Shown here: one piece after another, positions 10,274-16,540 of the stretch
Layout of the letters: each line of letters begins with the position of its first letter
Position numbering within the stretch: position 1 is the stretch's first letter
Assembly (NCBI GenBank): GCA_902576125.1
Contig: CACGUF010000004.1
Coordinates: forward strand, 64,363-100,973
From: an uncultured Alphaproteobacteria bacterium
Lineage (GTDB): Bacteria > Pseudomonadota > Alphaproteobacteria > HIMB59 > GCA-002718135
Length of the DNA: 36,611 bases
Reading direction: 5' to 3'
Notes under the pieces: generated by a model
Seen by the model: the letters and a program-made list of their open reading frames with translations, nothing else
Told to the model about the DNA's origin: nothing
Database searches by the model: none
Translations under genes and position numbers: made by a program

Positions 10274-10348
10274 TGGCGGTTTCGTAGGGACTCGAACCCC
10301 AAACCCATGTTCCGAAGACATGTGTGATATCCATTTCACCACGAAACC
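10274..10348 (-). tRNA. tRNA-Arg (anticodon UCG), CCA encoded
   Basis: A full cloverleaf can be drawn on the minus strand. The acceptor stem GGTTTCG pairs with CGAAACC, and the D stem is GTGA/TCAC. The anticodon stem CATGT/ACATG encloses loop CTTCGGA, and the T stem TGGGG/CCCTA has loop TTCGAGT. The discriminator base is G, followed by genomic CCA. Loop positions 34-36 are U-C-G, matching arginine codon CGA and possibly other CGN codons by wobble. The gene stands alone between asd and the YccF gene and points against both. No clear terminator follows it. Confidence 0.97.
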
Positions 10349-13774: not shown

Positions 13775-14817
13775 TGAGTTTTACCGTTCTTGATCATTAT
13801 AAAGGTTTTGTATTAAATAGTTTTATAAAAAAAGATATTAAGCAAATTGATTTGTTAAACAAAATTTCTTTTGCCTGGGAGCAATTCAATAAAAATAACC
13901 TTTTTTTTTCTAAAAAGAAAAAAATAGGCATTTATGTTTATGGTTTTGTTGGCACAGGTAAAACTTTTTTACTTAGTTTATTTTGCCAATATAGTAAGAC
14001 TGGAAAGAAAATTCATTTTAATCACTTTATGAACTATATTCATGAAGCTCTTAATTCAAAAGAAAATATAAATAAAAATAAAAAACTAGAAACCTTCATT
14101 AAAGAATTCTGCAAAGATATTAAAATTCTTTTTATCGATGAATTGCATATTTTTAATATAGTTGACGCTCTTCTTATTAGAAAAATTTTTCTTCTTCTTG
14201 AAGAAAATAATATATTCGTAATGACCTCTTCAAATTTTAAGCCAGGTGATCTTTATAAAGATGGTTTGCAAAGATCAGATTTTATACCTTTTATAAAACA
14301 CATAAAGGAAAACTATGATGTGATTGGTGTTGATAGTCAAACTGATTATAGAAGGCTTGCCCTTAATCAATCAAAGACATATTTTACCCCTATTAACAGA
14401 GATACTGAAGAAGAATTTAATTTACTTTTTAATAGGTTAGTGGATATTAACAATATAACTTCTAAAAAAATTGAAGTTAAAAGTAGAGAAATAAATTTTA
14501 CTAAATGTTCAGCAAATGTAGCTTATTGCACTTTTAAATTTATTTGTAATACTAATCTTGCACACGAAGATTATGCACGTATTGCAAAAGAATTTAAACT
14601 TATTTTTATTGAAAAGGTTCCCAAAATGACAAATGATTACTCTGATCAATGTAGGAGATTTATAAGCCTTATAGACATGCTCTACGACAATAAGTGTTCA
14701 GTTGTTATTCTTGCCGAAAATCCGATTTCTTCACTATGCCAAATTACCAATCTTTCAAATGAATTTCAGAGAACGGCAAGTAGATTATATGAAATGACTA
14801 TCACACAAACATCATGA
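13774..14817 (+). CDS. zapE: ZapE / AFG1-like P-loop ATPase
   Basis: 347 aa AAA-type ATPase. The Walker A is GFVGTGKT (57-64) and the Walker B is ILFIDELH (118-125). The family segment FVMTSSNFKPGDLYKDGLQRSDFIPFI follows, then DYRRL and an AFG1-type C-terminus with CRRFISLIDMLYDN. In E. coli ZapE is linked to cell division and the Z ring; mitochondrial Afg1/LACE1 acts in respiratory-chain protein quality control. Alphaproteobacterial copies commonly lie near sdh/mdh/suc genes, as here. It overlaps the upstream 46-codon ORF by 1 nt and the downstream hydrolase by 4 nt. The sequence is divergent and AT-biased but its motifs are intact. Confidence 0.92.
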   Translation: MSFTVLDHYKGFVLNSFIKKDIKQIDLLNKISFAWEQFNKNNLFFSKKKKIGIYVYGFVGTGKTFLLSLFCQYSKTGKKIHFNHFMNYIHEALNSKENINKNKKLETFIKEFCKDIKILFIDELHIFNIVDALLIRKIFLLLEENNIFVMTSSNFKPGDLYKDGLQRSDFIPFIKHIKENYDVIGVDSQTDYRRLALNQSKTYFTPINRDTEEEFNLLFNRLVDINNITSKKIEVKSREINFTKCSANVAYCTFKFICNTNLAHEDYARIAKEFKLIFIEKVPKMTNDYSDQCRRFISLIDMLYDNKCSVVILAENPISSLCQITNLSNEFQRTASRLYEMTITQTS

Positions 14818-15803
14818 AAAAATTACTTTTAATACTATTGCCTTCTATGATTTTTTTTAGCCTTATAATTTATGGAGCAGTGGGGTTTTATGTTGCATAT
14901 AGTATTCTTAAAATAGATCATACATGTGGTTGGCATGAAAATTCAAAACCTAATACTTGGAGCACTAAAATTGATGCTCATGAATATACAAACTTATCAA
15001 GAAATATATTGAGATCTAATTTTCCTTCTAATGAATACCATCTTGATGAATGGAAAAATGTCTATTTTCCATCAAGAGAAAATGGAATTCAAATTAATGG
15101 ATGGTTATTTAATTATTATGCAGATCGTCCAGTGGTTATTGTTATTCATGGTCTTTTTCCAAATGGCAAGTGTAAACCTGAATCAAATTTAATTGCAAGT
15201 TTGCTAATAAAGGAAGGGATTAATGCTTTAACTATAGATTTACGTAACTATGGGCAAAGCGATAAAGTAAGCGATTATGAAGATTTGGGATTAAAATCTT
15301 TTAACGATGTTTTGGGTGCATATGATTTTTTAAAAAAAATTGGCTTTGAGAGTAATAGCATTGGCCTTCATGGTATCTCATTAGGTGCAGTTCCTGCAAT
15401 CTTTGCCGCTAATGAAGAAAAAGATATTAAAGCCATTTGGGTAGATAGTTCTTTAGCTGAATTTAGTATGGTGCTTAAAGATGAAATTGCTAGATATGGA
15501 TTATCAATTGAGTTTGGACCTGCTGTTAGTTTTTTTGGAAAGTTATTATCAGGTGTTGATCCCGTTAATTTAAATCCTGCTAAAAAATTAACTAGTGACC
15601 AAAATTATTTTTTTACACATGGTGACAAAGATCAAAGGATGTTGGTAAGGCACTACTATTATTTTAAAAAATATGCAGAGGATAATAATATTAAATCTAA
15701 GTTTTGGTTAGCTGAAAACTCATATCATGTAGATGGTATGTTTAAATACCCAGATTTATATTCAGAAAAAATGAAAGATTTCTTTGAGGATAATTTAAAA
15801 TAA
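14814..15803 (+). CDS. Membrane-anchored alpha/beta hydrolase
   Basis: 329 aa. An N-terminal hydrophobic segment (residues 4-32) is an uncleaved signal or anchor that places the catalytic domain outside the cytoplasm. The fold signatures are VIVIHGLFPNG (oxyanion region) and nucleophile elbow GISLG with S189. An acid is likely in HGDKDQRM (D271 or D273), and the histidine is H305 in SYHVDGM. The layout resembles BAAT/DUF1749-type or acylaminoacyl-peptidase-like hydrolases; the substrate is unknown. It starts at an ATGA overlap with zapE and is the last gene of the coupled chain. Its stop codon touches the 3' end of a minus-strand RNA. Confidence 0.9.
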   Translation: MKKLLLILLPSMIFFSLIIYGAVGFYVAYSILKIDHTCGWHENSKPNTWSTKIDAHEYTNLSRNILRSNFPSNEYHLDEWKNVYFPSRENGIQINGWLFNYYADRPVVIVIHGLFPNGKCKPESNLIASLLIKEGINALTIDLRNYGQSDKVSDYEDLGLKSFNDVLGAYDFLKKIGFESNSIGLHGISLGAVPAIFAANEEKDIKAIWVDSSLAEFSMVLKDEIARYGLSIEFGPAVSFFGKLLSGVDPVNLNPAKKLTSDQNYFFTHGDKDQRMLVRHYYYFKKYAEDNNIKSKFWLAENSYHVDGMFKYPDLYSEKMKDFFEDNLK

Positions 15804-15943
15804 AAAAGTCGGACTGTCTTTGCTAGTTTGTACCTTGGCAGACACTTCTCTAGTAAAAAACTCGGTTATCATCAAACGGCGGGTAAGATGAAAACAATTT
15901 CTAGGCGTTCCTCCGAAGCAAAGAAAATGAGTTACAATCCGAC
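15802..15943 (-). ncRNA. Unidentified structured small RNA (about 142 nt), 6S-like rod architecture
   Basis: The two ends pair perfectly on the minus strand: 15934-15943 with 15808-15817 (10 bp, one G-U). A further 7 bp (15917-15923 with 15818-15824) stack after a 10-nt bulge on one side only. Inside are CTAG/CTAG pairing (15901-15904 with 15850-15853) and an apical hairpin TCATC/GATGA around 15869-15891, whose 13-nt loop contains ACCCGCC. A run of six U follows the closing stem. On the plus strand the closing helix has a C-A mismatch and there is no U tail, so minus is favoured. A promoter sits at the right place. The rod-like shape and size suggest 6S RNA, but I could not match conserved 6S bases. 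Confidence 0.75.
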
Positions 15944-15950
15944 TAAAATC

Positions 15951-15979
15951 AGATTACAATCAATGGGCAATAAATTCAA
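15951..15979 (-). promoter_or_regulatory. Sigma-70 type promoter of the small RNA
   Basis: Read on minus: -35 TTGAAT (15974-15979), a spacer of exactly 17 bp, and -10 TAATCT (15951-15956). Seven bases then lead to the G at 15943 that opens the RNA's closing helix. Spacing and start purine are ideal, and nothing but the RNA lies downstream. Confidence 0.75.
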
Positions 15980-16045: not shown

Positions 16046-16066
16046 CTATCCACAGACTTATACACA
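16046..16066 (+). promoter_or_regulatory. Two tandem DnaA-box-like sites in AT-rich intergenic DNA
   Basis: CTATCCACA (16046-16054, one mismatch from TTATCCACA) and TTATACACA (16058-16066, matching TTWTNCACA) lie in the same orientation, 3 bp apart. The rest of 15980-16168 is AT-rich with no gene seen; a weak inverted repeat AAGAAAAT/ATTTTCTT lies just before. The pair could be a DnaA regulatory site for sdh or chance in AT-rich DNA. I see too few boxes to call an origin. Confidence 0.3.
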
Positions 16067-16168: not shown

Positions 16169-16540
16169 ATGTCATTGAATCGCCCTTTATCCCCACACCT
16201 CTCTATTCATAAGAAGGTTCTAACATCAGTTTTCTCTATTTTTCATAGATTTACCGGTATCTTTCTTAGTCTTGGAGCTATCTTATTGTCCGTTTGGATT
16301 ATTCTCATTGCGCTTGGTCCTTCTTTTTATGCTAAATTTCAGACTTTCAGTTCTCTAATTTTTTTTAAAATATTTTTATTTCTTTGGACGCTAACTATTT
16401 TTTATCATCTTTATAATGGAATCAGGTATTTATTTTGGAGTTATGGCAAAATGATGGATTTAAGCACCGTATATAAATCTGGTTACGTCGTGATAATTTT
16501 ATCAATTTTATCGACAATGTTAGTTTGGTTTTCAATATGA
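16169..16540 (+). CDS. sdhC: Succinate dehydrogenase cytochrome b556 subunit
   Basis: 123 aa membrane anchor with three transmembrane helices. It holds haem b with SdhD and forms the quinone site of complex II. The family start RPLSPHLSIHKK follows the ATG at 16169. Quinone-pocket residues lie in SVFSIFHRFTG, and the haem-ligand histidine is H80 in FYHLYNGIRYLFW. An in-frame TTG at 16109 would add 20 residues not typical of the family, so the ATG is preferred, although no good Shine-Dalgarno precedes it. It starts the sdhCDAB operon; its TGA overlaps the sdhD ATG. Confidence 0.94.
   Translation: MSLNRPLSPHLSIHKKVLTSVFSIFHRFTGIFLSLGAILLSVWIILIALGPSFYAKFQTFSSLIFFKIFLFLWTLTIFYHLYNGIRYLFWSYGKMMDLSTVYKSGYVVIILSILSTMLVWFSI

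Follow-up and report, generated by a model that had tools for sequence, protein, structure and literature searches.

The window analysed here, a 36,611-nucleotide stretch of DNA from an uncultured alphaproteobacterium, carries a predicted structured small RNA gene on the minus strand, flanked by two plus-strand genes. The RNA gene runs from a predicted start G at 15943 to 15808 (136 nt), is followed directly by six U in the host window, and is assigned on the basis of fold, conservation and covariation. Convergent with it lies an alpha/beta-hydrolase-like gene (14814-15803, plus strand, stop codon at 15801-15803), a predicted label that we have kept from an earlier reader of this DNA, and divergent from it lies sdhC (16169-16540, plus strand, start at 16169). 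We found that sdhC adjoins the RNA in 50/50 aligned loci and that a match to the hydrolase lies beside it in 50/50, which bears out the convergent arrangement with the hydrolase gene that had been described before. The gap kept between hydrolase and sdhC is 365 bases; as genomes of the host family are given a mean intergenic spacer of only 3.32 bp in PMC10734472, the retention of such a gap is telling. At a single locus (L038:4385-4775) the hydrolase is apparently broken and shortened, being represented by a short remnant (a 93-aa match in a frame with stops) beside an intact RNA and promoter, and the RNA therefore does not seem to serve the hydrolase.

The host group is known under several names, AEGEAN-169, SAR11 subclade V and HIMB59 being equated in PMC10308909, and PMC10734472 describes the order HIMB59 as comprising the families HIMB59 and GCA-002718135. 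In the community survey that accompanies a Gulf of Aqaba data set (PMC5069720), AEGEAN-169 accounted for 4.55% of reads. Our genome set covered this one order with its two families, namely 110 genomes of the host's own family, which we infer to be GCA-002718135, and 52 genomes of a sister family, which would then be HIMB59. The two strains in pure culture, HIMB59 and LSUCC0245, are placed in the sister family. Fifty of the loci present in 80 host-family genomes, the window's own included, were fetched and contain 46 distinct RNAs. Alignment A1 holds 36 of the 50 (the host and 35 relatives, near-duplicates being left out), and the identity figures given below for parts of the locus refer to 16 chosen divergent loci.

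Upstream of the RNA, on the same strand, a -35 hexamer TTGAAT (15974-15979) and a -10 hexamer TAATCT (15951-15956) stand 17 bp apart, with seven bases between the -10 and the predicted start G. This is the promoter as the earlier note had read it, and it is kept in 48-49 of the 50 loci: TTGAA is readable in 49/50, and a 17-bp spacer together with a start G 6-8 nt past the -10 was found in 48/50 when the best placement by script was taken. Mean identity was 89.6% for the -35 and 84.6% for the -10 hexamer, with 49.5% for the promoter spacer and 36.0% for the region upstream of the promoter. At the other end the six U (15807-15802, minus strand) overlap the hydrolase stop codon and form what looks like an intrinsic-terminator tail in the host subclade. 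At least four U directly follow the helix in 19/50 loci, a further five are U-rich at this point and 26 are neither; since the U run is present in just 19/50 loci, the tail is confined to some subclades, and the six U remarked on previously hold for the host and not for the RNA in general. In the subclades with a U-tail the 3' end would be formed by an intrinsic terminator, while at loci without one it would have to come from another terminator or from processing.

The consensus structure was derived from RNAalifold and pair counts over 36 sequences and comprises 33 pairs in helices P1, P3, P4 and a two-part P5. The 10-bp helix P1 pairs a 5' side (GUCGGAUUGU, 15934-15943) with a 3' side (ACAGUCCGAC, 15817-15808) and closes the RNA at 15808; 100% of its cells are paired (n = 36), and two-sided changes occur in 4/7 counted pairs, for example GUCGGA/UCCGAC to GCCGGA/UCCGGC, with GCUGAGU/ACUCAGC in the most distant genus. 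Helix P2 (AACUC at 15929-15933 with GAGUU at 15863-15859) is predicted by the single-sequence fold; by eye, relatives show one-sided G·U changes in it, and it was left out of the pair counts because it is misaligned in A1. Hairpin P3 (UUUCUUUGCUUCGGAGGAACGCCUAGAAA, 15898-15926) has a GGAG loop, a core that is 92.6% identical, 98.5% of cells paired and a two-sided change in 1/9 pairs. In hairpin P4 (UCAUCUUACCCGCCGUUUGAUGA, 15869-15891) 95.2% of cells pair and two-sided changes are found in 3/7 pairs; its C-rich apical loop ACCCGCCG (15884-15877), the ACCCGCC loop singled out in the earlier note, is conserved at 91.9% identity. Hairpin P5 (CUAG-AGAA-GUGUCUGCCAAGGUAC-AAA-CUAG, 15823-15853) contains an invariant tandem G·U/U·G wobble, and its first 24 nt are 97.9% identical. 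The inner helix of P5 is 100% paired with 5/6 pairs invariant; as its pairs hardly vary and none changes on both sides, covariation neither supports nor refutes this hairpin. The resulting layout is branched, a closing helix plus three hairpins, instead of the bulged rod that had been proposed.

It can be seen that 98.4% of the 1186 helix cells form pairs and that eight pairs (34 cells), all in P1, P3 and P4, are altered on both sides, so that the compensatory changes in aligned relatives for which a search had been suggested do occur. Shuffles scored as high in 0/500 cases on four measures and in 1/500 on the fifth. When the helix partners were slid out of register, pairing fell to 31-44%; at a slide of +1, two-sided changes remained in six pairs (17 cells), at only 40% pairing. 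Overall the RNA is 72.1% identical, compared with 64.5% for the last 50 bases of the hydrolase, which is a small margin. The longest reading frames within the RNA span 7-38 aa on the minus and 11-43 aa on the plus strand (50 loci), and RNA lengths differ among relatives by amounts not divisible by three; with frames this short and variable, a protein-coding role is improbable. One long form was noted at L037:4473-4640, where the RNA measures 168 nt and is longer by roughly 25-30 bases in the stretch from P1 to P2.

The helices also bear on the strand. Read on the minus strand, the helices counted in 36 sequences have G·U in 143 cells and A·C in 2, which indicates that the RNA is a minus-strand one. 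Of these 143 cells, 72 are contributed by two P5 wobble pairs that do not vary, leaving 71 vs 2, and the count leans to the minus strand because the helices were derived on it; the promoter is strand evidence independent of this count. The RNAalifold consensus energy for the 36 sequences is -25.9 on the minus vs -14.7 on the plus strand, and single-sequence energy is lower on the minus strand in 30/36. For the host alone, the minus strand folds at -36.3 kcal/mol (z -2.68, with 3/200 shuffles as good) and the plus strand at -33.1 kcal/mol (z -1.74, 11/200). The element starts 4 bases past the hydrolase stop codon and, as these values show, folds on the plus strand too, which would suit a plus-strand element forming the 3' end of the hydrolase mRNA; however, the G·U to A·C ratio, the conserved minus-strand promoter and the intact RNA at the locus with an apparently broken hydrolase argue against such an origin, which we regard as very improbable. 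We conclude that the RNA is very probably real and encoded on the minus strand, as originally proposed and as the wobble ratio, the energies and the promoter together indicate.

In order to define its distribution we combined DNA similarity searches with a covariance model, R1, for which 36 of the 50 loci served as input and which was run in the large searches with stricter filters. Homologous DNA was detected in 80/110 host-family genomes, covering all six genera, and the RNA region was present in 10/10 genomes of this family that are at least 90% complete. R1 recovered the same 80 genomes, with one match per genome, and under the stricter filters matched 0/52 sister-family genomes. SdhC was detected in 83 host-family genomes, the remaining 27 having no SdhC match. 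The three with sdhC and no RNA have the site at contig ends: the relevant contigs of G014 and G024 begin within sdhC, and that of G053 has 14 bases upstream of it. As every sdhC without the RNA thus lies at a contig edge, the RNA is present in each host-family genome in which the site is seen assembled. Across 385 genomes of the class R1 gave three matches, two of them in members of the host family and one in G443. The G443 match (24.2 bits, E 0.06) was taken as chance; a motif check there gave no P3 or P5 motif and a single CCCGCCG, on the opposite strand and outside the R1 match.

An exact scan of named contigs for a 19-base P5 motif (GARGTGTCTGCCAAGGTRC) found it in 85 genome stretches. Among the 80 listed of these 85, R1 scores 72 as the RNA, at 52.7-153 bits and with one of them truncated by the end of its contig; the other eight are from unrelated bacteria and score at most 22.6 bits or have no R1 score. 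The labels of the 72 confirmed stretches include uncultured Alphaproteobacteria, Pelagibacteraceae AG-337-I02, Pelagibacterales SAG-MED31 and MarineAlpha5 bins, as well as one unplaced Proteobacteria MAG. Viral contigs gave 0 exact matches to the motif.

The sister family has a conserved element of its own upstream of sdhC, in the same place and read on the same strand, of the form GGUCG...UCUCACCCCGCAUGAGA...CGACC. It was present, with small changes at its ends, in 12/12 sister-family loci fetched and measures 80-131 nt; the example at L189:1230-1322 has a 7-base CCCCGCA hairpin loop. A model of this element, R2, matched 42/52 sister-family and 0/110 host-family genomes; SdhC was detected in 43 genomes of the sister family, of which only G148 lacks the element, its SdhC match being a partial one. 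In an alignment of 11 of the 12 loci (A3), 96.6% of cells are paired and five pairs show two-sided changes, and shuffles scored as high in 0/500 cases on four of five measures and in 95/500 on the other. G·U cells outnumber A·C cells by 12 to 1. The strand of this element is less sure: the consensus energies of the minus and plus strands are nearly equal (-10.8 vs -10.5), and of the sequences folded singly 8/11 reach the lower energy on the minus strand.

Likenesses between the two elements are the site divergent from sdhC, a closing helix, a C-rich hairpin loop and, by eye, TAnnnT seven bases before a G in most of the 12 sister-family rows; they differ in sequence, in topology and in length, the sister-family element spanning 80-131 nt. 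Cross-searches without filters, on 8 and 7 loci, gave no match of either R1 or R2 to the other family's element, and Rfam gave no match for the sister-family element. On the 385 class genomes R2 gave six matches, of which three belong to the sister family; the remaining three score 20-21 bits and were taken as chance. The shared position and C-rich loop hint at a common origin without proving it. Two further features were observed at the sister-family loci L189-L200. A conserved near-palindrome like ATAGTAAAAAACTAT lies near the sdhC start and is possibly a regulator site, and a box like TATATAAT stands just before a divergent TRAP-transporter-like gene (named by eye), a position that suggests a nearly leaderless mRNA for that gene.

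To place the host-family RNA among known families, the whole window was compared with Rfam 15 at gathering cut-offs. The only match was a tRNA at 10277-10348, with none at the RNA, which accordingly keeps the description of unidentified RNA that it had been given. At E up to 10 the RNA locus yielded chance-like rows far below the cut-offs with no 6S row among them, and in five relatives the RNA matched nothing, 6S included, when E values up to 5 were admitted. The earlier note had likened the supposed bulged rod, of about 142 nt, to 6S RNA (SsrS, RF00013), and own promoter, closing helix and existence as a free-standing small RNA are indeed common to both. However, the alphaproteobacterial matches to RF00013 usually run to about 150-165 nt and 6S is a rod with a large central bubble, whereas the RNA beside sdhC has 136 nt and branches from its closing helix into three hairpins. 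Given the missing model match, this length and the lack of a rod-and-bubble shape, we rejected the identification as 6S.

A looser version of the idea is that the RNA is a highly diverged 6S, or its functional replacement, that binds RNA polymerase. RF00013 finds 6S in 83/115 alphaproteobacteria and had no match in the host, in any of the 110 host-family genomes (searched with the stricter filters) or in G110, the sole sister-family genome searched; this pattern, the RNA's own promoter and its closing helix would speak for the idea. Yet 32/115 other alphaproteobacteria also lack an RF00013 match, so that the absence is not unique to the family and proves little alone, the large searches used stricter filters, and the size, the branching and the missing 6S row point the other way. 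We consider either form of this idea improbable.

Other known RNAs were compared as well. SRP RNA (RF00169) was ruled out, as a separate copy exists in 37/40 genomes, with the host's at G000:C2. Alphaproteobacterial small RNAs of the CcsR/cuckoo type have a C-rich hairpin loop with an anti-Shine-Dalgarno repeat. They share the C-rich loop with the RNA described here, but its loop reads CCCGCC, which is no anti-Shine-Dalgarno repeat, and it differs further in having the extra invariant hairpins P3 and P5 and in coming from an order in which Hfq was not found. CsrB/RsmZ decoy RNAs carry several GGAGGA-type sites; GGAGGA at the P3 hairpin loop is a likeness to these, whereas here there is one site. 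No report of this RNA appeared among the matches listed in searches of open-licence papers, and it would appear to be the first member of a new family of RNAs.

We then considered whether the RNA might act by pairing. The Hfq model PF17209 gave 0/60 matches in genomes of the HIMB59 order, 20 of which are at least 90% complete and one of which is the host's (72% complete), with a model that in a control detected Hfq in 5/14 known genomes. In the available host genome (72% complete) the complement of the P4 loop, CGGCGGGW, occurs only at the RNA itself; CpG is rare, with a CpG/GpC ratio of 0.39 in the window, so about three would be expected and a host count of 0 means little. In eight genomes CGGCGGGW was found 14 times outside the RNA vs 91 times for the reversed control. 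The CpG-corrected expectation, with the window ratio applied to all eight genomes, is about 36, and the shortage is therefore moderate.

The suggestion that the exposed loop would suit a trans-acting regulator has thus fared unevenly: the loop is conserved, but Hfq was found in 0/60 genomes, the U-tail is not general and in the host the loop complement lies nowhere else. An antisense regulator that uses the P4 loop (or P3/P5) to pair with mRNA leaders without Hfq would suit the conserved CCCGCC and a loop in the sister-family element, CCCCGCA, that is also C-rich. Against it stand the moderate shortage of complements, the Hfq result and the loss in relatives of the one good fit seen, in sdhC, and we think this mode unlikely, though the least so of the alternatives.

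That fit deserves separate mention. By eye, UAGAGAAGUGU in P5 is complementary, with one mismatch, to ACACCUCUCUA near the start of host sdhC (codons 9-13). Among relatives the sdhC site varies (CTC, CTA, CTT, TTG and others) and the RNA segment hardly varies; we rejected pairing with sdhC, as the near-perfect host site is not kept. Local regulation of the sdh operon, by pairing with sdhC mRNA or by tying the two promoters together, would draw on this complementarity, on the divergent arrangement in 50/50 loci and on the sister-family element at the same place, but it is hard to reconcile with a target that changes while the RNA hardly does, and we consider it improbable.

Our preferred reading, to which we give a probability of about 50%, is that the locus encodes a stand-alone, Hfq-independent structured small RNA of a new family that is most likely recognised by a protein. 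At the level of sequence it rests on the conserved sigma-70-type promoter, the strand, the covarying helices P1, P3 and P4 and the fixed site divergent from sdhC. The RNA would be transcribed in ordinary growth and would form a closed multi-branch scaffold, with P1 closing it, P2 enclosing P3 and P4, and P5 following. The nearly invariant P3 and P5 may be read by a protein, the RNA working as an RNA-protein complex, and the C-rich P4 loop could serve as an exposed contact. As the stems of P3 and P5 are frozen as well as their loops, recognition by a protein would fit better than a single-stranded seed. Frozen P5 and P3 would also suit an RNA that acts by pairing, or one that forms a pocket for a ligand, and we propose protein recognition as the main mode only tentatively, at slightly less than an even chance.

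What makes the stand-alone RNA of interest is its setting: these are streamlined ocean bacteria with little spacer DNA, and within the abundant AEGEAN-169/HIMB59 group one family still retains the RNA and its promoter. Hfq was found in 0/60 genomes of the order searched and 6S in none of the order's genomes examined, and the RNA lies outside Rfam 15. It thus offers a precise, testable probe of RNA-based gene regulation in such cells, and the covariance model can be run on existing marine metatranscriptomes. A far bolder proposal would be that the HIMB59/AEGEAN-169 order, which has no detectable 6S or Hfq, uses a clade-specific branched RNA beside sdhCDAB as a global RNA regulator, the elements of the two families being extremely diverged forms of one 6S-replacing RNA; we offer this as a speculation with a small chance of being right.

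Two observations concern the DNA around the RNA. Between its promoter and sdhC, at 16046-16066 of the window (CTATCCACAGACTTATACACA) and also in relatives, there are two DnaA-box-like sites, and a strict DnaA box is present in the RNA-sdhC gap of 26/50 loci. A replication origin at this pair was considered and dropped, as GC skew shows no switch near 16 kb. The skew does flip sign at about 2000-2200, at the junction of the minus-strand genes (1-2100) and the plus-strand genes, and beyond this point it is positive through most of the window.
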